In this document: in pieces, positions 10,101-43,291 of the stretch | Layout: each line of letters starts with the position of its first letter | Numbering within the stretch: the stretch's first letter is position 1 | DNA from: Clostridium sp. Marseille-P2415 | GTDB taxonomy: Bacteria > Bacillota > Clostridia > Lachnospirales > Lachnospiraceae | Length of the DNA: 64,000 nt | Direction: 5' to 3' | Assembly: GCF_900155545.1 (NCBI RefSeq) | Contig: NZ_LT732526.1 | Span: 1,137,894-1,201,893 of the forward strand | Notes under the pieces: model-generated | What the model was told of the DNA's origin: nothing | The model's database searches: none | The model's input: the letters and a program-made list of their open reading frames with translations, nothing else | Made by a program: the position numbers and the translations under genes

Positions 10101-10534
10101 AATTTATCGGTCCCACTGCCGCACAAACGAATACCATTGCCGGCAAATACCGCCTGACCAATACAGGAGATTCCGCTATTCCGCTATCAGATTTAAAGCT
10201 CCGTTATTATTATACGGCAGACAGTTCCCAGCCGCAGAATTTCTTCTGTGATTGGTCACATGCCGGAAGCCAGAACATAGCCGGAAGCTTTCATGCCCTG
10301 GATCCTGCCCTAGAGACAGCAGATACTTATTTAGAAATCGGCTTCTTAAGCGAAGCCGGGTCACTTGCCCCGGGACAGAGTATTGAATTGCATACCAGGG
10401 TTTCAAAATCCGACTGGTCCAACTATATAATGATAAATGATTATTCCTACACCCCAGCCGCTTCTTATGAAGTCTGGGATAAAATTACAGCCTACCAAAA
10501 TGATACTCTTATATTTGGTATAGAACCTCAATAA
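7154..10534 (+). CDS. GH74 xyloglucanase with two X2 modules and CBM3
   Basis: Secreted xyloglucan-active endo-glucanase, 1126 residues. A signal peptide ends near residue 32. The tandem seven-bladed propeller domain (about 35-790) shows repeated Asp-box sequences such as SEDYGETW, SVDYGETW and STDGGNTW. The aspartates in ARTDMGGAYR and GMYDLGGF are the expected catalytic pair. Two X2 (Ig-like) modules follow (about 795-880 and 885-975; both contain FDKN and DYT/DYS repeats), then a C-terminal CBM3 (about 977-1126). The start has TTAGGAG 8 nt upstream. It is the first gene of a two-gene transcript with GH26, 35 nt downstream. It should open xyloglucan so that cellulases reach the fibrils. Confidence 0.96.
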   Translation: MKNKGIKKAITPLLIFSCIGLFQYPATINAAVQTQAYEWKNVKINGGGYVDNIIFNPGEKDLIYARTDMGGAYRYDTANQSWDPLTDWIGWDDWNNLGCESLAVDPVETNRVYIAAGTYTNDWTSDNGYILRSEDYGETWEQTELPFKNGANMLGRSMGERLIVDPNSNNVLYFGARSGKGLWKSVDYGETWNQVSSLTHVGNYAPIEDDSTTYDNTLTGVVWVTPDPSSSTKGTPCQTVYIGVANKKGEDMVYRTLDGGATWSAVEGQPHNIVVPDPEKNPAKTTGLFPHHGVLASNGILYIPYSDGTGPYDGHKGEIWKYDTKSEVWTDITPIPTSSGDNYFGFGGLAVDANNPDTLIVSTLNSWWPDANFFRSTDGGNTWVRFWDWNGYPSRTLRYSLDISESPWLTFGKYENPPEPVVKLGWMIGNISIDPFNSDRMMYGTGATVYGTNNLTDIDTGGTVKLSVVAKGIEQTAAQTLVSPATGTAHLISGMYDLGGFVHNDLDKVPSMMMLTPFLANTSIDYAELSPTRFVRVGKVDTGSGSRIGLSYDTGNNWFSLNNPWQSGDSDTTEGGNVAMSADGNSIVWAPKGKPVYYSTNTGSSFSQSSGIPAGAMVASDRVNSDKFYGFYNGKFYVSTDKGATFTAKVTTGLPDSAMIKAMPGVEGDVWLAGASGKSGLFHTTNSGESFVKITGVEEASTIGFGKAAPGQTYMALYTSAFIDGIRGIFRSDDGGANWIRINDNDHQYGMTNACITGDPRIYGRVYLATNGRGILYADIKEDLPDSSSIAPVTASFDKNTKQQEDIAVSLELNGNTFHSITQNGVTLNKDTDYTINDATVTIKKDYLSRQPAGSLALDFNFSAGASRTLTITVTDTTGTQNSVITPDTAEFDKNSDNSKDIRVSMKPNGNSLLAIKNGSYTLTEGTDYSVTDQTIVIKKEYLSQQSIGTASLTFDFSAGTDPVMTILIKNSTVIEEGNLKVEFIGPTAAQTNTIAGKYRLTNTGDSAIPLSDLKLRYYYTADSSQPQNFFCDWSHAGSQNIAGSFHALDPALETADTYLEIGFLSEAGSLAPGQSIELHTRVSKSDWSNYIMINDYSYTPAASYEVWDKITAYQNDTLIFGIEPQ

Positions 10535-10569
10535 TATAGAACCATTATCCATAAGGGGGTAAATTATTT

Positions 10570-12633
10570 ATGAAAAAATTCCTACGAAGAGCAACTGTCT
10601 TTGCATTAACACTGTCCACTGCGTTAACGCCGGTAAGCGTAGCTGCAGCAGGGCAAGCAAATGGGACATTGATGCAAAATCCTGTTGATGCTGACGCGGA
10701 AAATGAGACGGAAAATTATCAATATCATTTTGAGGCTGAAGACGCTGTAATGTCAGGGGATGTTAAAATGGCCGCCACAAGGGCGGGGTACAGCGGAACC
10801 GGCTATGCCACCGGTTTTACACAAAAAGACGGTAATTCCTGGTCCTTCAAGGCAGAGATTCCCAAATCAGGACACTATACCTTTACTGTGCGGACGGCTT
10901 CGGACAGCTACAAAGAAAATTATCTTACTATCAACGGCAAGCAGGCTGGAATTATTTACAGCGACGGTGACGGAGCCTGGCACGATACGAAGATCGAGAG
11001 CGTCTGGCTGGAGGCGGGAACAGCTACAATCTCCATAGGGGAATATTGGGGCTGGTTTGATCTGGACTCTATTACAATTGAGGAAGGTTCCGGTGTCGAT
11101 GATTCCGTATATTCCTCCGCGACATCCGATCTGGTGAATCCCAATGCGAACAAAAGGACTGTGGACATCATGAAATACTTAAAAAGTATCTATGGACAAA
11201 AAACTCTGTCCGGCCAGTCCTGTACACTGAATAAAAGTACGGAGATTGAAGCAATTCACGACTTAACCGGAAAATACCCGGCAATTCGCATGCTGGATTT
11301 CATCTTCTGTGACCCTGCCAGTGATTATCAGTCCTCTGAGGAAGTAAATATTGCGAAGGAATGGGACAAAATGGGCGGACTTACCACGTTCCAATGGCAT
11401 TGGCATGCACCGAAGGGAGGCGCATCCTTCTATACAAAGGATACTACTTTCGACTTGTCAAAGGCAGTGACGGATCTGGATATCAGCCAAAAGTCCTTAG
11501 AAGAAATCAAAGCCTTATACCAGGCGGGAACAATTTCTGAGGAATGCTATCTGATCGTTCGTGATATTGATGTGATATCCGGGTATCTGGATCAGTTGCA
11601 GAAGGAAGACGTGACAGTGCTTTGGAGACCGCTCCATGAAGCCAGCGGCGGATGGTTCTGGTGGGGTGCTGCAGGTGCGGATGCATATCAATGGCTTTAT
11701 AAATTAATGTTTGAACGCCAGACCTATTACCATAAGTTAAACAATCTGATCTGGGTATGGAACGGCCAGGATCAGGACTGGTATCCGGGAGATGAATACT
11801 GTGACATAGCAGGAACCGATATTTATGCCGAAAAGCATTCCTATAGCGCTCTTCCGGATCAATTTATGAAAACCGTCAATTATTCCGGCGGTACCAAGAT
11901 GACGGCCTTAAGCGAAAACGGAGTCATGATGGATCCGGACCTGATGGAGCGGGATAATACCCATTGGCTGTATTTTGCAGTCTGGTATGGGGACTATATC
12001 ATAGATTCCACGGGAAAGGTAGGAAATACCTATACGGAAAGTACCATGGTAAATAAGATCTATAACAGCGACTCCGTGATCACGTTGGATGAACTTCCTG
12101 AATTTACAGACAGTGATCCGGGCGATACGCCGACCCCGGATCCAGATGAACCTGATGAACCTAATGACCCCGTGGATGTTACGCTTAAACTGAGTAATAC
12201 CGGTAATGGCCAGGCCTCCACCAACACGATTACCAATTCCTTCCAGATTTACAATGCCGGCGGAGAAGATCTTGATTTATCAAAGCTGGTGCTGCGTTAT
12301 TATTATACAAAGGAGGGAATTGCACCGGAGAGCTTCTACTGTGACAATGCGGCGCTTCGGGCCGACAAGGATCCCTGGTATGTTCCCTATACCGGACAGG
12401 TTACGGGAGAGTATGTATCATTTGATAAAGAAGAAGCCGGGGCCGGCAGATACTTAGAGATTAAGTTCAATACGACCGATAAATTTATGAAGGGTGCAAC
12501 CCTGAACATCGATACAAGAACGGCAAAAACGGATTGGAGCTTATATGACCAATCAGATGATTACTCCTATCAAAAAGACGGTAACATTACCATTTACTAT
12601 GACGGACAACTCATTCTTGGTACGGAGCCGTAA
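10570..12633 (+). CDS. GH26 beta-mannanase with CBM35 and CBM3
   Basis: Secreted endo-beta-1,4-mannanase, 687 residues: signal peptide (1-28), CBM35-type jelly-roll (about 45-170, YHFEAEDAVMSG), GH26 barrel (about 185-515), an acidic Pro/Asp-rich linker (about 516-535, PTPDPDEPDEPNDP) and CBM3 (about 540-687). LWRPLHEASGGWFWWG contains the acid/base glutamate and ALSENGVM the nucleophile glutamate. AAGGGGG lies 8-9 nt before the ATG. It follows GH74 and shares its promoter module. CBM35 would bind mannan and CBM3 would anchor the enzyme on cellulose. Confidence 0.95.
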   Translation: MKKFLRRATVFALTLSTALTPVSVAAAGQANGTLMQNPVDADAENETENYQYHFEAEDAVMSGDVKMAATRAGYSGTGYATGFTQKDGNSWSFKAEIPKSGHYTFTVRTASDSYKENYLTINGKQAGIIYSDGDGAWHDTKIESVWLEAGTATISIGEYWGWFDLDSITIEEGSGVDDSVYSSATSDLVNPNANKRTVDIMKYLKSIYGQKTLSGQSCTLNKSTEIEAIHDLTGKYPAIRMLDFIFCDPASDYQSSEEVNIAKEWDKMGGLTTFQWHWHAPKGGASFYTKDTTFDLSKAVTDLDISQKSLEEIKALYQAGTISEECYLIVRDIDVISGYLDQLQKEDVTVLWRPLHEASGGWFWWGAAGADAYQWLYKLMFERQTYYHKLNNLIWVWNGQDQDWYPGDEYCDIAGTDIYAEKHSYSALPDQFMKTVNYSGGTKMTALSENGVMMDPDLMERDNTHWLYFAVWYGDYIIDSTGKVGNTYTESTMVNKIYNSDSVITLDELPEFTDSDPGDTPTPDPDEPDEPNDPVDVTLKLSNTGNGQASTNTITNSFQIYNAGGEDLDLSKLVLRYYYTKEGIAPESFYCDNAALRADKDPWYVPYTGQVTGEYVSFDKEEAGAGRYLEIKFNTTDKFMKGATLNIDTRTAKTDWSLYDQSDDYSYQKDGNITIYYDGQLILGTEP

Positions 12634-12715
12634 CGCATCACGGGGCTGTCTTCGGAAGCTGTTATCAATTCATGGCAGATATTCAGTCTTAATCTAAACA
12701 CATAAACAGATACAA

Positions 12716-12748
12716 CAATAGAAAGTACACTTCGTGTACTTTCTATTG
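12716..12748 (+). terminator. Strong hairpin after GH26
   Basis: A 15-bp perfect stem (CAATAGAAAGTACAC / GTGTACTTTCTATTG) with a 3-nt loop lies 80 bp after the GH26 stop. The T-tract is weak, so it may stabilise the 3' end rather than terminate. The gap 12634-12970 holds only this and the next hairpin. Confidence 0.55.
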
Positions 12749-12807
12749 TCATGAATGAGAGTCTTTTAGTTAAGGCTTTTCTTTAAAAATCGATGGTCCA
12801 CACATGA

Positions 12808-12844
12808 AAAAAGCTGTTATCTCATCAATAGATAACAGCTTTTC
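12808..12844. terminator. Bidirectional terminator between GH26 and rpmF
   Basis: AAAAGCTGTTATCT and its complement AGATAACAGCTTTT form a 14-bp stem with A/T tracts on both sides, serving the convergent GH74-GH26 and yceD-rpmF transcripts. Confidence 0.75.
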
Positions 12845-12970
12845 AGTGACCATTTTAAATCGATATGTGTTATTATCGAAAGTGCCACGACTTAAAATAA
12901 TTATCAGATAGATAAAACCTTTGTTTTACAAGTTATCTAAAATATTTTATTTCAGTCTGCAAGCAAAAAA

Positions 12971-13153
12971 TTAGTCTTCAACCTTCACAATTTCTTTCTT
13001 GTTATAAGAACCGCAAGCCTTGCATACTCTGTGAGGCATCATAAGTGCGCCGCACTTGCTGCATTTCACTAAGTTTGGAGCGCTCATCTTCCAGTTTGCT
13101 CTACGTTTATCTCTTCTTGCCTTAGAAGATTTGTTCTTTGGACAGATAGACAT
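12971..13153 (-). CDS. rpmF: 50S ribosomal protein L32
   Basis: Small basic ribosomal protein, 60 residues, the usual length. The N-terminus is PKNKSSKARRDKRRANW, followed by a zinc ribbon with CSKC (9 residues before HRVCKACG), so this is the C+ (zinc-binding) form. It begins 2 nt after yceD ends, the conserved yceD-rpmF pair of Firmicutes, and is driven by the consensus promoter upstream of yceD. Confidence 0.98.
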   Translation of the reverse strand: MSICPKNKSSKARRDKRRANWKMSAPNLVKCSKCGALMMPHRVCKACGSYNKKEIVKVED

Positions 13154-13155
13154 GG

Positions 13156-13683
13156 TTACACCTCCTTAAACTGTTTAAAAATATCCTGGATGACTGCCAT
13201 TCTAGGGTCTGCAGACCTAATATCGCAGTCACAAGTCTCATGATTGAGATTTGTTCCACATCTATTACAAATCCCCTTGCAGTCTTCACTGCAGAGAACC
13301 TTCATAGGCAGGTTCAGTATGAGTTCATCACAAACCAACTGGTCTACATCCAGATTATAACCGTTAACATATGGTTGTTCTTCGAGATCATTGATACGCC
13401 CTTCTTCCGTTTCGCTTAAATCAATCGTCCGGATGATATCAAATCCCAAATCAATACGCACCGGATCAAGGCAGCGGTCACATGGAATGATCAGAGCAAG
13501 CTTTGCTTTCCCTTCCACTTCCAGCTTTTTGTCTCCCAGATTCATAATCCGCAGCACGACTGGTTCGGCATCCGCCACTTCATAATCACCGTTCGGCCCG
13601 TGGTAGACTTTCATCTCTATATCGGGTGTATAAGTTTTCTCTTTCCCCTCCAGGGTAAACAACTCGGTTAAATTAATAAGCAT
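13156..13683 (-). CDS. yceD: DUF177 / YceD family protein
   Basis: 175 residues, member of the DUF177 family almost always paired with rpmF; implicated in large ribosomal subunit or 23S rRNA metabolism in other organisms (family knowledge). Visible features are CDRCL in the middle and a C-terminal Cys cluster (CSEDCKGICNRCG, CDCD) that could bind zinc. A strong SD (TAGGAG) precedes the ATG, and a perfect consensus promoter lies immediately upstream. Confidence 0.92.
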   Translation of the reverse strand: MLINLTELFTLEGKEKTYTPDIEMKVYHGPNGDYEVADAEPVVLRIMNLGDKKLEVEGKAKLALIIPCDRCLDPVRIDLGFDIIRTIDLSETEEGRINDLEEQPYVNGYNLDVDQLVCDELILNLPMKVLCSEDCKGICNRCGTNLNHETCDCDIRSADPRMAVIQDIFKQFKEV

Positions 13684-13710
13684 ATTAGTCTCCTAATACG
13701 CACCTATGTT

Positions 13711-13739
13711 ATTATACATAGGGGCACACTATTTGTCAA
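13711..13739 (-). promoter_or_regulatory. Consensus sigma-A promoter for yceD-rpmF
   Basis: TTGACA (13734-13739), 17-nt spacer, TATAAT (13711-13716) on the minus strand. Both hexamers are perfect, as expected for a ribosomal-protein transcript. The -10 region lies in an inverted repeat (CCTATGT...ACATAGG). Confidence 0.9.
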
Positions 13740-13796
13740 CAAAATATTTCCATATTTCATTTTACATACAATTATCATGTGTCATTGTGTCTCAGA

Positions 13797-14990
13797 TTAT
13801 ACCAGAGCTTTTGTCTCTCTTGCAATGGCAAGCTCTTCATCGGTAGGAATGACGCATACCTTAACTCCGGACTCCGGTGAAGAAATCATGACACGCTTTC
13901 CTCTCAGACTGTTGGCTTCTGCATCGATGGAAACCCCAAGGTAACCTAAGTATTCACAAATTGCACCTCTGATCGGCTTATCATTCTCACCGACACCTGC
14001 AGTAAAGGCGATGGCATCAACACCGTTCATTGCTGCGGTATAAGCGCCAATGTATTTTGCAACCCGGTAAATAAATGCCTGAATTGCAATATCTGCCTGA
14101 TGGTTTCCTTCTGCCTGAGCCTTCTGTACATCACGGAAATCGCTGGAAATGCCGCCGGACATACCGAGAATACCAGACTTCTTATTTAAAATGTCTAATA
14201 CTTCATTTACATCCTTGCCTTCCTTATTACAGATAGTCTGAACCACAGCCGGATCAATATCACCGCTTCTGGTTCCCATTATAAGGCCTTCCAATGGAGT
14301 AAGCCCCATGCTGGTATCTACACATTTTCCGCCGATGGAAGCAGAAATGCTGGCTCCATTGCCTAAATGGCATACGATAACTTTCCCCTTATTCGGATCC
14401 AGTCCGCAGAACTTCAAAGCTTCTTTGGATACATAGCTGTGGCTTGTTCCATGGAAGCCGTAACGGCGGATGCTGTATTTCTCATAATATTCAGGCGGAA
14501 TCGCATATAATGCTGCTTTTTCGGGCATACCCATACCGAAAGCGGTATCAAATACGGCAACATTCGGTACTCCTGGCATTGCATCCTCACATGCCTCAAT
14601 GCCCATTAAGTTTGCCGGATTATGAAGAGGCCCTAAATCGAAGCAGTCGCGGATAACCTTTTTCACATCTTCATTCACTACGATGGAATCGCTGTAAATC
14701 GTTCCGGCGTGGAGAACTCGGTGACCTACTGCGGAGATTTCACTGGTATCCTTGAGCACGCCGTATTCAGGCTCAACCAATGCATCCATAACCAACTTGA
14801 TAGCAACTGTGTGATTCGGCATATCCTTTTCTACTACCTTTTCGCCTTTTCCCTCTGCCTTATGAGTCAGCTTGGAACCATTAATACCAATTCTTTCACA
14901 TAAACCCTTTGCTAAAACTCCCTCATTTTCCATATCGATCAGCTGATATTTTAAGGAAGAGCTTCCGCAGTTGATAACTAAAATTTTCAT
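13797..14990 (-). CDS. ackA: Acetate kinase
   Basis: Cytoplasmic enzyme making ATP and acetate from acetyl-phosphate and ADP; 397 residues, normal length. ASKHA-fold motifs are the N-terminal MKILVINCGSSSLKYQL, VCHLGNGASI, the arginine/aspartate region MGTRSGDIDP and FTAGVGEN. It follows pduL by 21 nt, so the two genes form the acetyl-CoA to acetate ATP-yielding pathway. An SD (AAGGAG) precedes the start. Intact. Confidence 0.98.
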   Translation of the reverse strand: MKILVINCGSSSLKYQLIDMENEGVLAKGLCERIGINGSKLTHKAEGKGEKVVEKDMPNHTVAIKLVMDALVEPEYGVLKDTSEISAVGHRVLHAGTIYSDSIVVNEDVKKVIRDCFDLGPLHNPANLMGIEACEDAMPGVPNVAVFDTAFGMGMPEKAALYAIPPEYYEKYSIRRYGFHGTSHSYVSKEALKFCGLDPNKGKVIVCHLGNGASISASIGGKCVDTSMGLTPLEGLIMGTRSGDIDPAVVQTICNKEGKDVNEVLDILNKKSGILGMSGGISSDFRDVQKAQAEGNHQADIAIQAFIYRVAKYIGAYTAAMNGVDAIAFTAGVGENDKPIRGAICEYLGYLGVSIDAEANSLRGKRVMISSPESGVKVCVIPTDEELAIARETKALV

Positions 14991-35969: not shown

Positions 35970-36146
35970 TTTAAGGAACCTTCTTTGCTGCAATTGCTCT
36001 TTCTTTCGATTTATACTACCATTTATATCTGGCAATAAATACCGGAAAATTATGATTTTTTTCCAGATGAAATTAGATATTCTATATTCTTTTTATAAAA
36101 TCTCTAATTTTTCATGGATGTTAGTGCTCTTTTTTCTGGTAGTCTT

Positions 36147-36189
36147 TTTATTTTACAGGGGAGCTCGGAAAACTTTCCTGTAAAATAAA
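36147..36189. repeat. 13-bp inverted repeat between importer operon and agrB
   Basis: TTTATTTTACAGG (36147-36159) and CCTGTAAAATAAA (36177-36189) with a 17-nt spacer. Read on either strand it is followed by T-rich sequence, so it may be a second terminator or an operator for the importer promoter. Confidence 0.6.
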
Positions 36190-36218
36190 AAAATAACGAG
36201 GATATTCCAAGCCTCGTC
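36187..36218 (-). terminator. Terminator of the acetone-agrB operon
   Basis: Minus strand: ACGAGG / CCTCGT stem (36212-36217 with 36196-36201), then TTATTTTTTTATTTT. It starts about 10 nt after the agrB stop. Confidence 0.7.
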
Positions 36219-36226
36219 ATTTCATT

Positions 36227-36823
36227 TCAACAGTAATTAACGGTTGCCTTATTAATTTTTGCAGTTATCTTTTGAAGCAGCAGTAAAAATGCCGCAGCGT
36301 AAATTCCGTAACCTAACAGGCTTCCTGTCTTATAAAAATGAAAGACCGTCAGTAATACGCAGCCTATATTCACCAGAATAAGAATGTGCCTTGATTTTTT
36401 TCTGTAATACAGGGTTTCCTTCTCATCCAATTTTTTATTATCATTGTCTACGGGACTCATGAAAAAAATGACTCCATCCGATAAAGCCAGTGCTCCCCAC
36501 CACATGTATTGGTTGATTACGGCTTTCGACACGAAAAGAATAATAAAAACATAAAAGCAGGAAAACAGATAGCACCCGGTTCTTGTCTTTGCATGATAGC
36601 CCCCGGCACTTCGTCTTAGCGGTATCAGCACACACCCTATGACGATCAGCTCAGGCAGCATCCCCAAACAGGCAGCAATTCCAAAATATGATATGCAATG
36701 AATCAGTTTTAAAACCAGGCACTCCATACCAAATGTATATATTTCTGTCTCCTCTTCCGGGATAATATTATAAAGTACAAGCTTCTCTATCATATGCTCT
36801 TTCCAGCTTATCATTCTGATCAT
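36227..36823 (-). CDS. agrB: AgrB-type peptide-processing membrane protease
   Basis: 198 residues with about five hydrophobic helices. The catalytic motif RRSAGGYHAKTRTGC places His and Cys seven residues apart, exactly as in staphylococcal AgrB (His77/Cys84). SPVDNDNKKLDEKE is the second conserved segment. Function: cuts the C-terminal tail of an AgrD precursor and forms the cyclic (thio)lactone signal. It is the last gene of the thl-adc-ctfA-ctfB transcript, coupled (ATGA overlap) to a 57-codon frame, and separated from agrD by 3.7 kb. SD AGGAG lies 13 nt upstream inside that small frame. Confidence 0.95.
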   Translation of the reverse strand: MIRMISWKEHMIEKLVLYNIIPEEETEIYTFGMECLVLKLIHCISYFGIAACLGMLPELIVIGCVLIPLRRSAGGYHAKTRTGCYLFSCFYVFIILFVSKAVINQYMWWGALALSDGVIFFMSPVDNDNKKLDEKETLYYRKKSRHILILVNIGCVLLTVFHFYKTGSLLGYGIYAAAFLLLLQKITAKINKATVNYC

Positions 36824-36993
36824 TTGGATTTTTTTACTCCTCGCATTTTTGATATGATTTTCGATGCAATATTCTTTTCATTATTTATATTAACGACTGA
36901 TCCATAAAATGAATCCGGTAATTTCAGGCCGCGGCAGATGCACTTACAAAACAGCGCCTGCCGGGGCCATTTTCCGAAACTACCGGCTTTCAT
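36820..36993 (-). CDS. Small Cys-rich basic protein coupled to agrB
   Basis: 57 codons. AGGAG sits 6 nt before the ATG and overlaps the ctfB stop; the stop overlaps the agrB start as ATGA. Sequence features are a basic start (MKAGSFGKWPRQ), a Cys cluster FCKCICRG at residues 15-22 and a Lys-rich tail (SKMRGVKKSK). It does not look like a classical AgrD, which ends in an acidic tail and has a single ring cysteine. It might be a second AgrB substrate, a regulatory partner of AgrB, or only a frame that couples agrB translation to ctfB. I do not recognise a family. Confidence 0.5.
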   Translation of the reverse strand: MKAGSFGKWPRQALFCKCICRGLKLPDSFYGSVVNINNEKNIASKIISKMRGVKKSK

Positions 36994-37002
36994 GGTTTGC
37001 TC

Positions 37003-37659
37003 CTATACTTCGATCATCTTTAAATCCGGTGATACCGTAAGCTTGGCCTCTGTTGCATTTTGAACGTCTTCGGCCGACAGGCCGGGTGCAATTTCCTTCA
37101 GCACCAGCCCCTTGTCCGGGACAACATCGATGACAGCCATATTGGTTACAATGGTTTTGGCCACATTTATGGCCGTCAGCGGCAGCCTGCACTTTTTCAG
37201 TATTTTAGGGGAACCGTCTTTGCTCACATGCTCCATGGCTAAAATCACCTTCTTGGCTCCGACAACCAAATCCATGGCTCCCCCCATGCCCGGTACCTTT
37301 TTGCCCGGAATCATCCAGTTTGCCACGTTGCCTTCCTCGTCAACTTCAAGGGCACCCAAAACGGTAATATCCACGTGTCCTCCGCGGATGATGCAAAATG
37401 AAAATGAACTGTCAAAAAAACTGGCTCCCTTCATTGTGGAAACGTAATTTCCTCCTGCATCAATGCAATCCAGGCTTTCCTCTTCCTGCGCCGGCTTCGG
37501 ACCTACGCCAAGAATTCCATTTTCAGCCTGCAGCGTAATCTGAACATGATCCGGCACGTAGTTTGCAACCATTGTAGGCAATCCAATTCCAAGATTTACA
37601 ACATCACCGTCTTTCAGCTCCTTTGCAATCCTTTTTGCAATAAATTCTCTATTATTCAT
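37003..37659 (-). CDS. ctfB: Acetoacetate/butyrate CoA-transferase subunit B
   Basis: 218 residues, SCOB (AtoA-like) subunit carrying the catalytic glutamate in QAENGILGVGP. GVDIGLPTMVANY-like start (NLGIGLPTMVANYVPD) and MGGAMDLVVGAKKV are typical. With CtfA it moves CoA from acetoacetyl-CoA to acetate or butyrate, giving acetoacetate for Adc. Starts 3 nt after ctfA ends, so the subunits are coupled. Confidence 0.95.
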   Translation of the reverse strand: MNNREFIAKRIAKELKDGDVVNLGIGLPTMVANYVPDHVQITLQAENGILGVGPKPAQEEESLDCIDAGGNYVSTMKGASFFDSSFSFCIIRGGHVDITVLGALEVDEEGNVANWMIPGKKVPGMGGAMDLVVGAKKVILAMEHVSKDGSPKILKKCRLPLTAINVAKTIVTNMAVIDVVPDKGLVLKEIAPGLSAEDVQNATEAKLTVSPDLKMIEV

Positions 37660-37662
37660 ACA

Positions 37663-38319
37663 TCATCCCACCTTTACTATCGCATTTACAAAAATTCCGG
37701 GAACGTTTACATGATTGGGATCGATTTCCCCTGTATGTACGTATTCTTCCACCTCTGCTACTACATAGTCTGCAGCTGTTGCCATAACAATATTAAAGTT
37801 ACGGGAAGATCCGTTGATGATGAGATTTCCTGCTTCATCGGCCTTTTGTGCCTTAATAAAAGCTACATTTGCTTTTAGCGGCAGTTCAAGCAAATAATCC
37901 TTCCCGTCAATATCGATCTTTCTCTTTCCCTCTTCGACAACGGTACCGATGCCTACCGGCGTTATAACACCGCCAAGGCCGGCGCCGCCTGCACGAATTT
38001 TTTCCGCAAGAGTGCCCTGAGGAAAAAGCTGTACCTTAGCTTCTCCGGTCATAAGGAGCCTTCCCGTTTCCGGATTGGAGCCAATATAGGAAGCAAAGAT
38101 CTGTTTTACTCTTCCGCTTTTCACCAATTGATAAATGGATAACTCCGGTGTACCTGTATCATTGGAAACAATGGCCAGGTTGCCGGCAGAATTTGTTTTT
38201 ACGAGAGCTGATACCAGATTTTCCGGATGCCCTCCGGCCAGAAAACCGCCGACCATAAGCATGTCTCCGTCTTTTACCTTGCTGACTGCTTCCTCAGCCG
38301 TCATTAATTTACTGTTCAT
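37663..38319 (-). CDS. ctfA: Acetoacetate/butyrate CoA-transferase subunit A
   Basis: 218 residues, AtoD-like subunit: DGDMLMVGGFLAGGHPENLV, FPQGTLAEKIRAGGAGLGG and ITPVGIGTVVEEGK are the family glycine-rich signatures. AAGGAGG precedes the ATG. Order thl-adc-ctfA-ctfB makes a full acetone route in one transcript; clostridial sol loci place adc apart from ctfAB, so the order here is different. Confidence 0.95.
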   Translation of the reverse strand: MNSKLMTAEEAVSKVKDGDMLMVGGFLAGGHPENLVSALVKTNSAGNLAIVSNDTGTPELSIYQLVKSGRVKQIFASYIGSNPETGRLLMTGEAKVQLFPQGTLAEKIRAGGAGLGGVITPVGIGTVVEEGKRKIDIDGKDYLLELPLKANVAFIKAQKADEAGNLIINGSSRNFNIVMATAADYVVAEVEEYVHTGEIDPNHVNVPGIFVNAIVKVG

Positions 38320-38338
38320 GCCATAAGCCTCCTTTCCT

Positions 38339-39079
38339 TTAATTCAGATAATCATGCAATACTCTTGCATACGGTAATGTTAAATCCGCAATATAATGCT
38401 TCCCTCCGATGCAGGCTTTTACGGGTAAATCCGCTACAGGAGCATTGACATGAGGGATCAGGCTCAATCTGGCAGGTCCGGACCAGGCGCCCTTTACTAC
38501 AATGTCCTCCAGATTATAGGCTGTTAACTGTGCAATTTTCAGGCTGCCGTCAACATCAGGAATTAATTTTAAATTAACCTGGGTCCTGGCTATGGCTCCG
38601 GCAACTGCCTTATCATCAAGAACGTTGTATTTGAAAGGCATCGTACCCATGGCCACCAGAATATCATTATAGTGCAGAGTACCGGTTAATGTTTCAGTTT
38701 CTTTTACCTCCAGACTGGGATGTCCCCATTTTTTAGGAAATCCCCAGATTTCACGTCCGCCAAGAATGGCGGGACCGTTATTTAAATACATCTGGGCAGT
38801 AAAATTGCAGGGTTCCCCATCAAAAGTGCAGGGAATCACGATACCGCTTTCTTCATAGCTTCCAAACCCGGACGAATCGGGCATTTTAATCCATTCATAT
38901 AAAACAGTATTGCTTCCATCCGGTTTCAGGGGCTCCGGGACAGCTTGTCTGATCAAAGCCGGATCGGATTCATAGCATATCGTAAAAAATTCTCTATTGA
39001 TAAAACGGCAGGGCGGACGGCCATAGCTTGGACTGGCCGCAGGCATGGAATACAGGGAAAGAATCTCTTCTTGATTCAT
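38339..39079 (-). CDS. adc: Acetoacetate decarboxylase
   Basis: About 246 residues, decarboxylates acetoacetate to acetone and CO2. GGREIWGFPKKWGHP holds the Schiff-base lysine (first of the KK pair) and the neighbour that lowers its pKa. RFINREFFTICYESDP and ALIRQAVPEPL match the family N-terminal domain. AAAGGAG is 7 nt before the ATG at 39079 (an ATG 6 nt further upstream is too close to the SD). Lies between thiolase and CoA-transferase, which settles its role. Confidence 0.95.
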   Translation of the reverse strand: MNQEEILSLYSMPAASPSYGRPPCRFINREFFTICYESDPALIRQAVPEPLKPDGSNTVLYEWIKMPDSSGFGSYEESGIVIPCTFDGEPCNFTAQMYLNNGPAILGGREIWGFPKKWGHPSLEVKETETLTGTLHYNDILVAMGTMPFKYNVLDDKAVAGAIARTQVNLKLIPDVDGSLKIAQLTAYNLEDIVVKGAWSGPARLSLIPHVNAPVADLPVKACIGGKHYIADLTLPYARVLHDYLN

Positions 39080-39115
39080 ATACATGCTCCTTTCTATGTA
39101 AAATTATTTAAGTTC

Positions 39116-40300
39116 TTAATCCACTGCATTTTCTACCAGCATTGCGATTCCCATCCCGCCTCCGATGCATAAAGCTGCTATACCGTAATGTGAGTTTCTC
39201 CGTATCATCTCATTCACCAATGTTACCAGTATCCTGGCTCCGCTTGCACCTACAGGATGTCCGATAGCAATTGCTCCGCCATTGACATTCACCTTTCCCA
39301 TATCAACCCCAAGTTCCCTGGTTACTGCCAGGGCTTGTGAGGCGAAAGCTTCATTTAATTCAAAAAGATCAATTTTATCTATGGATAAATCCAGTTTCTT
39401 AAGAAGCGATTTCACCGCTTTTACCGGGCCGATCCCCATATAGGCCGGATCAACACCAACAAGAGAATAACCCTTTATGTAAGCTGACGGCTTTAAATCA
39501 TACTCTTTGCATTTATCTTCAGAAGCTACTAACATAGCCGCCGCACCATCGCTTATAGGCGAAGCGTTTCCGGCAGTAACTGTACCGTCTGTTTTAAATA
39601 CCGTCCTCAAACCGGATAATTTTTCCTTTGTAGTATCCGCTCTGACATGCTCGTCATCAGAAAAAATAATTTCTTCCTTTTTCTTTTTAACCGTTACAGG
39701 AACAATCTGACTGTCAAAAGCCTTCCTGTTTTTTGCTTCTGCTGCCTTCCTATGACTTTCATATGCAAATTCATCCTGCATAGGCCTTGAAATTCCATAT
39801 TTATCAGCAACATTTTCTGCAGTAATACCCATATGATAATTTTTTAAAGCACACGTAAGACCATCAGTGACCAAGCTGTCAATTATTTCACCATTGCCAA
39901 GCCGGTAGCCGTTTCTTGCGTTCCTTAAAAGATAAGGGGCATTTGACATGCTTTCCATGCCTCCGGCTAAAATTACGTTATCCTGTTCTGCCAGAATTGA
40001 ATCATAGGCTAAAGCAACCGTATGAAGTCCTGATCCGCAGACAGTGTTTATTGTTGATGCAGGTATATCAAACGGTATTCCTGCCTTTGATGCAGCCTGT
40101 CTGGCGGGGTTCTGGCCTATGCCTGCCTGAAGGACATTTCCCAAATAAATCTTATCAATAAAAGAACTTTCCAAATTACTTTGCTTAAGACAAGCTTTCA
40201 TGACTGTTGATGCCATTTCAGGGGCACTTACAGTGGACAGGGTTCCGTTAAAGGAACCGACAGCTGTTCTTAAGGGACTAATCAAAGCTACCTTTTTCAT
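39116..40300 (-). CDS. thlA: Acetyl-CoA acetyltransferase (thiolase)
   Basis: About 394 residues. Condenses two acetyl-CoA to acetoacetyl-CoA. Nucleophile Cys in TINTVCGSGLHTVALAY, catalytic His in AIGHPVGASGARI, second Cys in CIGGGMG. Start chosen at 40300 (MKKVALISPLRTAVG) with AAAGGA 9 nt upstream; an ATG at 40318 gives six extra residues. First enzyme gene after agrD and the 180-bp leader. Confidence 0.96.
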   Translation of the reverse strand: MKKVALISPLRTAVGSFNGTLSTVSAPEMASTVMKACLKQSNLESSFIDKIYLGNVLQAGIGQNPARQAASKAGIPFDIPASTINTVCGSGLHTVALAYDSILAEQDNVILAGGMESMSNAPYLLRNARNGYRLGNGEIIDSLVTDGLTCALKNYHMGITAENVADKYGISRPMQDEFAYESHRKAAEAKNRKAFDSQIVPVTVKKKKEEIIFSDDEHVRADTTKEKLSGLRTVFKTDGTVTAGNASPISDGAAAMLVASEDKCKEYDLKPSAYIKGYSLVGVDPAYMGIGPVKAVKSLLKKLDLSIDKIDLFELNEAFASQALAVTRELGVDMGKVNVNGGAIAIGHPVGASGARILVTLVNEMIRRNSHYGIAALCIGGGMGIAMLVENAVD

Positions 40301-40318
40301 TTCATTCATTCCTTTCAT

Positions 40319-40497
40319 TTGGATTTTGCATCAGCTGCCAGGACAATCATTGATTGAGTTGACAGCTGATGATTGTTAGCTACATCTATGTAAACCTGAA
40401 TGGAAAAATCAGGCAGCATAATCAAATTGCTCATGATTGCCAATTTGAAACGCTTCTACATATTTGTGAACAAGTTTAAAATTATGTTCTTTCGTAC
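40319..40497 (-). promoter_or_regulatory. Structured leader between agrD and thlA
   Basis: 180 bp without a convincing gene. CATCAGCTG (40329-40337) and CAGCTGATG (40363-40371) form a 9-bp inverted repeat; AATCAT/ATGATT arms overlap it and could form an alternative fold; a short CCTGA/TCAGG hairpin lies further upstream. It could be an attenuator, a processing site or an operator controlling how much agrD transcription enters the acetone genes. A 39-codon frame (40315-40434) ends at the thiolase start but has no SD. Confidence 0.4.
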
Positions 40498-40644
40498 TTA
40501 GAATTTTCTTAATTTCAATACATCTTTAGGTAATTTAGGCTGGTAGCCAATAAAGAAACAGGAGGAATTTGCTTCTTTTACAGCTGACTTTAAAATTGCT
40601 TTTGATACCAGTTCCAATGATAACGTTTTTAATTCTTTTTTCAT
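40498..40644 (-). CDS. agrD: AgrD-like cyclic autoinducer peptide precursor
   Basis: 48 residues. An amphipathic, Lys/Leu-rich N-terminal half (MKKELKTLSLELVSKAILKS) suits membrane attachment; then ANSSCFFIGYQPKLP contains the single Cys (residue 29) expected to form the thiolactone ring and the GYQPKLP stretch typical of clostridial/Lachnospiraceae cyclic lactone autoinducers; a charged tail (KDVLKLRKF) would be removed. AAAGGA lies 9 nt before the ATG. Encoded directly after agrC and its terminator and before the acetone genes. The exact mature peptide ends cannot be read from sequence. Confidence 0.92.
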   Translation of the reverse strand: MKKELKTLSLELVSKAILKSAVKEANSSCFFIGYQPKLPKDVLKLRKF

Positions 40645-40741
40645 AATGGTTTTTCCTTTCTTGTTATTATTTTTTTGATATTTCTTGTTTACAGCCGCAT
40701 TTTCTCACTCTTTTGTTTCATTTTCAATACTACACGAATAA

Positions 40742-40768
40742 CTTACAGTTTTTTTGTATATCTTACAG
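40742..40768 (-). promoter_or_regulatory. Direct-repeat operator upstream of agrD
   Basis: On the minus strand CTGTAAG occurs twice (40762-40768 and 40742-40748), exactly 20 bp apart, just after the agrC terminator and about 100 bp before agrD; TAGTAT follows as a possible -10. The layout resembles AgrA/LytTR operators (two short direct repeats about two helical turns apart). Probable site for the AgrA-like regulator at 42139-42882 (inference). Confidence 0.55.
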
Positions 40769-40797
40769 AAAAAAGGAGCCTGCTTTGCAGGCTCCCG
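40769..40797 (-). terminator. Terminator after agrC
   Basis: Perfect 9-bp stem GGAGCCTGC / GCAGGCTCC with a 3-nt loop and T6 tract on the minus strand. It separates agrAC from agrD and the acetone operon. Confidence 0.9.
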
Positions 40798-40825
40798 GGA
40801 TAAAAATGGTGGTTTTAATTTTAAA

Positions 40826-42130
40826 TTATTGATTAAAGATGATCTTACAGCTGAATTTCATGGCTTCTTCCTCTAAGACCATACAGCCATTGTACTTCTT
40901 AATAATGTTTTCCACGTTCAGCAAACCAATTCCATGGTTTTTGCCTTTCCTTGATACCGGTTTGTCATGATTCCATTTTTCAATTGGCATGGAACTATTG
41001 CTGATATTTACAACGATAAAATCATTATATCTGTCCAGTTTCATTTCAATATATTTATTTTGGGAAACCATATCACACGCTTCTATCGCGTTATCCAGCA
41101 AATTTCCGAATACGGTAGTTACTTCAATCGGTTCCATAAAGCTGAGGTCAACACTCCCTACTTCCAGGCCAAACCGGATGTTATGAAAGTTGGCAATTTT
41201 CTTTTTATCATTCAATAAAACATTTAAAATCGGATTATTTGTATATTCTTCCAAAGCCAGCGGCAGCAGCATCTCACTTATTTCCTGCGTATATGTTATT
41301 GCAATTTCTTCCTCTTTTGCCTGATACATATTTTCGATCATTTTTATATGTTTGTTAACATCATGCAGAATTTTGACGGATTCATTATACTTTTCTTCCT
41401 GCTCCGCATAGTATTCATATTGCAGCAATGACTGCTGCTCTAAAAGCCTTAATTTTACCTTCAGCTGATTATACTTTTCCGCAAACCTGGCAAAGTACAG
41501 GAAATATAAATCCGCAAATAACATAAATGCCATATTGATCAGTAAGAGGATAAATTCCGTATTACTCGTGATCTTGGAAATAACAGAGATAATGACAGCT
41601 AAATCGGCAATGCTGAACAAAATTATAATTACTTCAACCAGAAATTGTGGTTTCGTAAGCGTTAAGTCATCCCGCCACAGCTTTGAAATGACTAAATAAT
41701 AAAAAATCAGCACAAATAATTTAGAAAACGTTATCTCCATGCTCTCCATCATAATCGCCTGAATATTATGTATCCCTAATTTCCATAAAATAAATTCCAG
41801 TGTAAATACGCCGACTGTTTCACATACTGTCAGTATCGAAATCAATACCGGAACTTCTAAAACCCGGTAAATATTTTTAATATTCGTATTCTCATACAAT
41901 GCATAATTTACAATGCCAAACAGTATAATCCAGCTTGCAAAATTAATGACAGGCTGCTGTATCACATTAATGCAGACAATAACCAGGTATAGTCCTGTTT
42001 TTACCAGGAAATACAGCCATCGATTCGCATATATTCTTTCATTTTTTTCTTCTATAAATTGAAATAATATGAGACTGTTAATCAGACATGAAATAACGGT
42101 ACCGAATATAAAAAAAATATAATCTTCCAT
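40826..42130 (-). CDS. agrC: AgrC-like sensor histidine kinase
   Basis: 434 residues. Six to seven hydrophobic helices in the first 205 residues, a coiled-coil linker (about 205-240), then a GHKL kinase: ILHDVNKHIKMIENMY with the phosphorylated His, NLLDNAIEAC (N box) and HGIGLLNVENI (G box). This design is that of peptide-pheromone receptors. SD TAGGAG is 6 nt before the ATG; 8 nt after agrA. Expected ligand: the cyclic product of the agrD at 40498-40644. Confidence 0.92.
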   Translation of the reverse strand: MEDYIFFIFGTVISCLINSLILFQFIEEKNERIYANRWLYFLVKTGLYLVIVCINVIQQPVINFASWIILFGIVNYALYENTNIKNIYRVLEVPVLISILTVCETVGVFTLEFILWKLGIHNIQAIMMESMEITFSKLFVLIFYYLVISKLWRDDLTLTKPQFLVEVIIILFSIADLAVIISVISKITSNTEFILLLINMAFMLFADLYFLYFARFAEKYNQLKVKLRLLEQQSLLQYEYYAEQEEKYNESVKILHDVNKHIKMIENMYQAKEEEIAITYTQEISEMLLPLALEEYTNNPILNVLLNDKKKIANFHNIRFGLEVGSVDLSFMEPIEVTTVFGNLLDNAIEACDMVSQNKYIEMKLDRYNDFIVVNISNSSMPIEKWNHDKPVSRKGKNHGIGLLNVENIIKKYNGCMVLEEEAMKFSCKIIFNQ

Positions 42131-42138
42131 TTTTTCTC

Positions 42139-42882
42139 CTATATACTGCTTTGTATAAATTTATTTAATTTTTTTCTGAAATCAGCTGATTTTTTTTGTG
42201 AAACCGGAAGCTTTTCATTATTATCAAGAAAAACCTCATAACCTTTTATTTTTTTAACATGCATTAAGTTTACCAGAAAACATTGATGGCAGGTTTCAAA
42301 ATTGTGTTCTTTCATCTTTGCTGCCAAATACTTCATTTTATCAACAAAGAAATATTCTTCATTTTCCAATTTTATTTTTATTTTTCTATTAAAATATTCA
42401 AAATAATAAATATCTTTTACTTCAAAGCTCTTAATTTTATTTTCTATTTTCCCTTCCTTTGTTATTTCTATGGTCTCAAATTTTACGATTTCTATTTTCT
42501 CATTTTCTTCTTTTATGTATCGAATCACTTCATCAAGCTGCTGCTCTGCCTTGCTTTTTGTAACAGGCTTATCTAAATAAGCAAATGCATGAACATTATT
42601 CACTGCCTGTATACAATATTGCTTATAATTGGTCGTATATACTATTTTGGAATTTCTGTTTATTTCACGCAGTCTTTTACCTGTTTGAATACCATTTATG
42701 CCTTCCATGGCGATATCAAGAAATATTAAATCAAGTTTATCATGAAATTCCAGTAATTCTTCTCCTGACTTAAAGATATATATTCGAAATGGAATAAATT
42801 TGGTATTCATATAGTTCTTAACAATAGTTTCAATTCTTGCAGAATCTTTTTTGTTATTATCACAAATAGCAATATTAAGCAT
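42139..42882 (-). CDS. agrA: AgrA-like LytTR response regulator
   Basis: 247 residues. Receiver domain (AICDNNKKDSARI; acceptor Asp in LIFLDIAMEGINGIQTG; Lys in AYLDKPVTK) followed by a LytTR DNA-binding domain (about 145-245; CHQCFLVNLMHVKKIKGYEV). The family binds pairs of short direct repeats. GGAGGA precedes the start. First gene of agrAC, with promoter TTGATT-N17-TAAAAT. Confidence 0.93.
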   Translation of the reverse strand: MLNIAICDNNKKDSARIETIVKNYMNTKFIPFRIYIFKSGEELLEFHDKLDLIFLDIAMEGINGIQTGKRLREINRNSKIVYTTNYKQYCIQAVNNVHAFAYLDKPVTKSKAEQQLDEVIRYIKEENEKIEIVKFETIEITKEGKIENKIKSFEVKDIYYFEYFNRKIKIKLENEEYFFVDKMKYLAAKMKEHNFETCHQCFLVNLMHVKKIKGYEVFLDNNEKLPVSQKKSADFRKKLNKFIQSSI

Positions 42883-42918
42883 CTATGTCCTCCTCAAGAT
42901 AATTATTATGACACTTTT

Positions 42919-42947
42919 ATTTTAAGGCTGCCGTTTTTATAAATCAA
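42919..42947 (-). promoter_or_regulatory. Promoter for agrAC
   Basis: TTGATT (42942-42947), 17-nt spacer, TAAAAT (42919-42924) on the minus strand. No CTGTAAG repeats here, so agrAC looks constitutive relative to agrD. Confidence 0.65.
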
Positions 42948-43046
42948 CCTAAATTTCCTCAAATTTTCATACACGCAATCCGCATAAATTTGATAGAGGC
43001 TTTCTATTTCCGTCGTCCATACCAGCAGAAAATGAAGGGATACCAC

Positions 43047-43142
43047 ATGAAAGCTACCGTTATTATATATGTTAACAGCATCATAAAAATACCTGTTTAT
43101 AATGAAGACAATACAATCAAAACATTGTTATTTTTTAAGTAA
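43047..43142 (+). CDS. Possible 31-residue peptide
   Basis: An ATG with GAAGGG 7 nt upstream opens a 31-codon frame (MKATVIIYVNSIIK ... LLFFK), hydrophobic with Lys ends. It lies in the 457-bp gap between agrA and the lipoprotein gene, where no other gene is seen. No promoter or homologue is evident; it could be chance. Confidence 0.2.
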   Translation: MKATVIIYVNSIIKIPVYNEDNTIKTLLFFK

Positions 43143-43291
43143 ATGGATGCCTCCCGCTGATGTTTAAAAAAACTACTTTATTGCTTTTTGTTCCGATTTT
43201 ACCAGTCATTTTTTGCTGTTCTCTGTTACAGGAAAATCAGAATGGAGATATCGGCAGTTCAAAAAATATCCATGCAAATCTTCCGTATTTA

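Follow-up and report, generated by a model that had tools for sequence, protein, structure and literature searches.

The acetone pathway nested in an agr quorum-sensing locus of Lacrimispora and relatives, probably behind an AgrA autoinduction promoter

The described systems closest to the locus reported here are the agr system of Staphylococcus aureus (P2 operon agrBDCA) and the agrBDCA-CA_C0082 locus of Clostridium acetobutylicum. The former resembles it in its AgrB-, AgrD-, AgrC- and AgrA-type proteins, in the autoinduction proposed below for the signal genes, and in two direct repeats 5' of the promoter with a centre near -60 (PMC4227749; here and below, articles are cited for the available parts of their text). 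The latter is a clostridial agr locus with an adjoining Agr-controlled effector gene, which differs in that the effector is transcribed separately and acts on granulose and on spores; in that species agr affects spores and granulose while final solvent levels are agr-independent (PMC10301443, PMC8102284). A role of agr in solvent formation by C. beijerinckii is presented only as a hypothesis (PMC6362236). Here we describe a locus in a 64,000-nucleotide stretch of Clostridium sp. Marseille-P2415 (contig NZ_LT732526.1, positions 1,137,894 to 1,201,893), hereafter the window, in which agr genes enclose a complete set of acetone genes. The acetone pathway has probably been captured in an agr operon, behind the AgrA autoinduction promoter, so that the acetone genes would share the autoinduction. 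In contrast to S. aureus agr, a whole fermentation pathway would lie in the autoinduced unit, and agrA-agrC is separate and has its own terminator. The same ctfA, ctfB and adc enzymes are found in solvent-forming Clostridium (41-59% identity, three genomes sampled), but no AgrB-like frame is present in 19 kb around adc in those three genomes.

The order on the minus strand of the window is agrA-agrC-terminator-agrD-thl-adc-ctfA-ctfB-57-codon frame (orf57)-agrB-terminator. The features are as follows.

42882-42139, minus: agrA, LytTR-type response regulator (PF00072, 46.7 bits; PF04397 LytTR, 68.4 bits)
42130-40826, minus: agrC, membrane GHKL histidine kinase (PF14501, 76.4 bits; 7 hydrophobic segments in a simple hydropathy scan)
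40796-40774, minus: intrinsic terminator 3' of agrC (10-pair stem and T run; the stem is also seen in RNA folding)
40768-40736, minus: candidate AgrA operator (direct repeats CTGTAAGATATAC / CTGTAAGTTATTC, period 20 bp)
40727-40699, minus: predicted promoter 5' of agrD, TTGAAA-17 bp-GAAAAT with TG ahead of the second hexamer (score 9/12; position conserved in the alignment)
40644-40498, minus: agrD, cyclic signal peptide precursor, core CFFIGYQP (TIGR04223, 45.6 bits, cut-off 19)
40497-40319, minus: structured agrD-thl spacer
40318-39116, minus: thl, acetyl-CoA acetyltransferase (thiolase; TIGR01930, 479.9 bits)
39085-38339, minus: adc, acetoacetate decarboxylase (PF06314, 235 bits; NF002614 above cut-off; solved relatives 3bgt, 3c8w and 3bh2)
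38319-37663, minus: ctfA, acetoacetyl-CoA:acid CoA-transferase subunit A (TIGR02429, 209.6 bits)
37659-37003, minus: ctfB, CoA-transferase subunit B (TIGR02428, 314.2 bits)
36993-36820, minus: orf57, 57-codon frame between ctfB and agrB (no family match)
36823-36227, minus: agrB, signal-processing membrane protease (PF04647, 121.5 bits, cut-off 23)
about 36218-36187, minus: terminator-like stem-loop and T run 3' of agrB (sequence and RNA folding)

These coordinates and family profile matches bear out the gene list and single-strand order first given by a sequence-only reading of the window. The acetone set (thiolase, both CoA-transferase subunits and acetoacetate decarboxylase) is complete, with all families above cut-off, and Adc aligns along its whole length with the solved enzymes 3bgt and 3bh2. 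On the agr side, the locus encodes an AgrB family protein, an AgrD with the cysteine and a cyclic-lactone match, a GHKL-type AgrC and a LytTR-type AgrA. His77 and Cys84 of AgrB, which we take to be the catalytic pair, do not vary across 11 aligned orthologues. Five AgrB-family genes, at five places (L001-L005), and one strong adc are encoded in the 5.25-Mb genome. The agrC terminator was the best of 7 terminator-like sites in the scan (chance expectation 5.0); the stem-loop behind agrB is absent from that list because its loop is too long for the scan. As the sequence-only reading had claimed with its figure of about 3.7 kb, agrD and agrB are far apart with the four acetone enzymes between them, the distance from the end of agrD to the start of agrB being 3.67 kb. 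The window thereby departs from the adjacency of agrB and agrD, which is the typical order in Agr systems and not a defining trait.

The nesting is conserved among relatives. The genus of the window genome is Lacrimispora, judged from the named relatives Lacrimispora xylanisolvens, L. amygdalina, L. defluvii, L. algidixylanolytica and [Clostridium] aerotolerans, and 25 genomes of the genus were in the set. A search of 61 genomes found AgrB orthologues in 14 of the 24 other genus members (55-66% identity); in all 15 genus genomes with this agrB, the window genome included, the gene is directly downstream of ctfA-ctfB. An adc orthologue (at least 73% identity) is present in 16/25 genus genomes, and all 16 are within the agr locus, two of these loci being cut by contig ends (the G019 contig stops in ctfA, and the G015 locus is on two contigs). 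Four weak adc matches (24-25% identity, frames of 944-955 amino acids; G005, G007, G013, G014) were excluded from the orthologue count, and a different agr locus (L054, in G007) was left out of the counts. The agrA orthologues of the nested loci in the genus are 65-74% identical. The synteny of agrB with ctfB and adc that had been proposed as a check is thus found in every acetone-bearing genus genome that could be judged. In one L. xylanisolvens genome (ASCUSBR21, G023; L038/L057), agrC, thl and adc are each broken into two frames, by sequencing error or decay.

As far as the contigs extend, 13 of the 15 genomes have the order agrA-agrC-thl-adc-ctfA-ctfB-agrD-agrB, and the other two, the window genome and G012, have agrD between agrC and thl. 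The split of agrD from agrB emphasized in the sequence-only reading is therefore real in the window but is not the conserved part: since agrD adjoins agrB after ctfB in the 13 genomes, the conserved feature is the acetone operon nested in agr, and the distance between agrD and agrB is a variant of the window's subgroup. In the majority and possibly ancestral layout, the acetone operon is flanked by agrC and agrDB. Among agr loci that lack acetone genes, the closest relatives are the canonical agrA-agrC-agrD-agrB loci of the genus members G005, G008, G013 and G014, which are of the same lineage (AgrC 43-44% identical).

Outside the genus, a scan of GTDB contigs gave 18 AgrB relatives, 16 nested (L055-L070) and 2 canonical (L071, L072). 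The nested ones include the window's closest relative, an uncultured bacterium (L055), as well as Lachnotalea glycerini (L065) with agrD last and Anaerosacchariphilus polymeriproducens (L067/L099) with agrD first and no thl between agrD and adc. In a family sample of 397 genomes, 23 had an ADC-family match, 21 of them outside the genus; 7 of the 21 were fetched and two (G130, G392) have the nested locus. G392 (L098) represents a fourth lineage outside the genus, with the order agrA-agrC-agrD-thl-adc-ctfA-ctfB; a convergent secondary (isopropanol-type) alcohol dehydrogenase gene follows ctfB in agrB's stead (region 10469-12423). In the class sample, 6 genomes had an ADC-family match, and the nested locus was found in none of the 3 fetched; the three Clostridium-like acetone loci of this sample (adc 41-43% identical) have no AgrB-like frame in 19 kb around adc. 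On this limited sample, with nested loci in 2/7 family and 0/3 class genomes, the capture seems restricted to one part of the family. The agrD-first order is common to the window, G012, L055, L067, L069 and L098, and both the agrA+agrC tree and that of the acetone genes place the agrD-first loci in one part, Lachnotalea (agrD last) falling inside this part or next to it with modest support; either order may thus have come first. On the simplest view, a canonical agrDB operon took in the acetone genes downstream of its autoinduced promoter. The insertion point would have been the promoter-agrD or the agrD-agrB interval, and agrD would later have been relocated at least once.

The regulatory part of the argument is carried by the region immediately 5' of the unit's first gene, which is thl in most relatives and agrD in the window. 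Two direct repeats of the form [CT]TGTAAGNTATAC, 20 or 21 bp apart, are followed by TTGAAA (TTGTAA in G012), a spacing of ~17 bp and an AT-rich -10 element in an alignment of 14 nested loci; L037 and L058, which are on the same short contig, are absent from this alignment and from the trees. A matrix built from 12 sites, with the window excluded, scores 37.3 at 40768-40736 of the window, where the next best score is 8.0 and six shuffled windows give 7.4-15.1. Each of 17/17 nested loci has one operator site (38.4-48.0, mostly members of the matrix training set). No second operator of this kind was found 5' of agrD or agrB in the 17 nested loci (best score 13.2), nor was one found at the other agr loci L001, L002, L004 and L005 (3.5 kb read) or at the alcohol dehydrogenase loci L109 and L110 (best score 8.4), whereas the main sites score 37-48. 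The window genome has exactly one site at up to 3 mismatches. Each of the 16 acetone genomes contains exactly one match to a shorter pattern, with thl in each 3 kb fetched, and the 9 others contain none; the reversed pattern, used as a control, has no match in the 25 genus genomes. A strict regular expression missed 2 of the 16 nested named loci, namely L058 (contig start within adc) and L065 (second repeat CTGTCAG). Since these sites themselves supplied the pattern, the presence of the operator is partly circular as evidence; the informative points are its absence elsewhere and its one-to-one match with adc.

The position of the repeats also agrees with an AgrA site. The operator centre is at ~40752 and, if the transcript is assumed to start 7 nt past the -10 element (~40692), lies at about -60, as does the centre of the operator bound by S. 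aureus AgrA at P2 and P3 in the available part of PMC4227749. The four canonical loci of the genus share this layout ahead of agrD, with different operator letters and with CICIGYQP in place of CFFIGYQP as the signal core. An AgrA-type direct-repeat operator thus appears to precede the operon proposed to be autoinduced. In two relatives, an insertion of ~2.4 kb separates agrC from the operator, which remained with thl. The insert of L036 contains, at 12517-14151, a convergent gene for a thiamine pyrophosphate (TPP)-type enzyme of 544 amino acids that is acetolactate-synthase-like by eye; L045 has a similar insert, and L046 possibly the remains of one.

In the regulatory model we favour, this promoter would drive agrD-thl-adc-ctfA-ctfB-agrB as one unit in the window and thl-adc-ctfA-ctfB-agrD-agrB in most relatives, and agrA-agrC would form a separate unit ended by its terminator. 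On crowding, the AgrD peptide, matured by AgrB, would activate AgrC, and phosphorylated AgrA would switch on the promoter ahead of the acetone unit. Acetone enzymes and signal-making genes would thereby be raised together, whichever order agrD takes, and the formation of acetone from acetate would become part of a positive feedback loop. From the comparison of loci we infer binding of AgrA to the operator, a single transcript and an acetone output that tracks cell density. The gaps within the unit are compatible with one transcript: those between the enzyme genes are short (in the window thl-adc 30, adc-ctfA 19 and ctfA-ctfB 3 bp), ctfB-agrB gaps are 6-23 bp in agrD-first relatives, and agrD-agrB gaps are 3-4 bp in the relatives' agrD-last loci. 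In the window, ctfB and orf57 are 9 bp apart, and there is a 4-bp overlap between orf57 and agrB. The sequence check turned up no separate promoter for agrB, though the ctfB-agrD gap of relatives could hold one. The shared transcript and positive loop proposed by the sequence-only reading are accordingly favoured by the conserved linkage and the single operator and promoter 5' of the first gene.

The frame orf57 occupies the place held by agrD in relatives. It has no family match in profile searches and no match in the relatives' loci examined. Its derivation from a decayed agrD was rejected, since 105 to 921 of 1000 shuffles scored at least as well as orf57 when aligned locally to six AgrD sequences. 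It is perhaps a mere spacer that couples translation.

Several observations weigh against the regulatory model. The ctfB-agrD gaps of relatives are 86-112 bp and could conceal a promoter. In the window, the spacer between agrD and thl has a strong predicted fold (-51.4 kcal/mol, z -5.0, with 0/200 shuffles as good) and might separate agrD expression from thl expression; levels along the transcript may therefore differ. Promoter-like hexamer sites are overall at chance frequency (27 vs 24.8 expected). The canonical loci fail the operator matrix (maximum 9.7), so that their likeness to the operator rests on layout. G392 has no agrB in the locus, and L067 has no thl. The agr mutants of C. acetobutylicum end at normal solvent levels, with higher acetone and butanol at 48 h on 5% glucose, and a linkage of agr with acetone genes is not reported in the available part of that article (PMC10301443).

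The folded spacer also bears on a reversed logic, in which a metabolically controlled acetone promoter reads through to agrB or agrDB and the signal reports the fermentation state more than cell density. The position of agrDB or agrB at the end of the operon and the short gaps would suit such an arrangement as well. The single conserved upstream element, however, resembles an AgrA site and not the site of a metabolic regulator, and no second conserved element was identified, though motifs of the spacer are unexplained; we regard this reading as unlikely. The motifs, common to L055, L098 and L065, are GCCTGATTT, TTACATAGATGTAAC and a long hairpin, CAGCTGTCAAC...TTGACAGCTG, which lies directly ahead of the thl ribosome site. 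The spacer has no T run and no Rfam match, and a search of 36000-43200 for RNA families gave two matches only, both under the gathering score. It is possibly a cis-acting RNA element.

Linkage could also exist without regulation, the acetone genes travelling with agr as a cluster by hitch-hiking or shared transfer and being driven mainly by pH, Spo0A or catabolite control. The patchy occurrence (16/25 in the genus and three other lineages) is as in a mobile cluster, and Spo0A is the known driver of the C. acetobutylicum solvent genes (PMC10301443, available part). Such mere linkage is nevertheless quite improbable to us: operator and promoter are directly 5' of the first gene in every readable nested locus, the operator remains with thl where DNA is inserted behind agrC, and genomes without the cluster lack it. 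The Spo0A-box-like sequence TG[TA]CGAA does not occur in the intergenic parts of 36000-43100, the only two copies being inside ctfA and agrB. Finally, a rearrangement might have parted agrD and agrB in the window's subgroup, leaving a failing circuit. G392, which retains agrA, agrC, agrD and the acetone genes without agrB there, and orf57 in the place of agrD would fit such decay. All window frames are intact, however, AgrB retains His77 and Cys84, the AgrD core is unchanged, the operator is present, the agrD-first order is common to L055, L067, L069 and L098, and the likeness of orf57 to AgrD is not above that of shuffles, which makes decay very improbable.

With the AgrA-driven acetone unit as the preferred reading, the signal and the product can be considered together. 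The AgrD core is CFFIGYQP in 17 of 18 nested AgrD sequences and CFFLGYQP in Lachnotalea; the canonical loci have CICIGYQP, CVFLGYQP or CMCIGYQP. The window genome also encodes a secondary alcohol dehydrogenase (G000:C9:3145605-3146663), of the type of the solved isopropanol dehydrogenase, that is 88% identical to the one beside the G392 operon. This 86-88% form is present in 8/16 acetone genomes vs 0/9 others. Acetone may thus be reduced onward, with isopropanol rather than acetone as end product. The enzyme per se was rejected as a marker of acetone genomes, a relative being present in 25/25 genus genomes. For L. saccharolytica, mainly ethanol, acetate and lactate are given as products in the available part of PMC9441933, and we found no report of acetone production by a carrier of the locus in the open-access literature, as far as its available text extends. 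The same literature, with subscription journals and preprints outside the search, gave no description of agr genes flanking acetone genes in the text available, as the sequence-only reading had supposed. The locus would therefore be a newly described, conserved variant of Agr signalling with a fermentation pathway within the autoinduced operon.

Since the genome contains a single high-similarity operator for this AgrA, followed by the acetone pathway and the signal genes, these may constitute its whole regulon, in a private, single-purpose circuit with the pathway itself inside the feedback loop. The predicted signal core is identical in 17/18 loci across species, so neighbouring species could conceivably trigger each other's acetone formation. 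We hold both parts of this extension tentatively, with somewhat more doubt than belief; if true, acid removal would be a shared, crowd-triggered act. Physiologically, CtfAB and Adc would use up acid and release acetone and CO2, and the resulting relief of acid stress would aid all neighbours and be most worthwhile in dense cultures. Whether and how cell-cell signalling governs the clostridial acid-to-solvent switch is an old question. A natural locus that appears to tie one pathway to one signal via one promoter, and that is carried by culturable species whose genomes are public, makes it testable. The locus may also serve in engineering as a ready-made, density-triggered module for acetone or isopropanol, and it would be unusual in having primary metabolism as part of an autoinduction loop.

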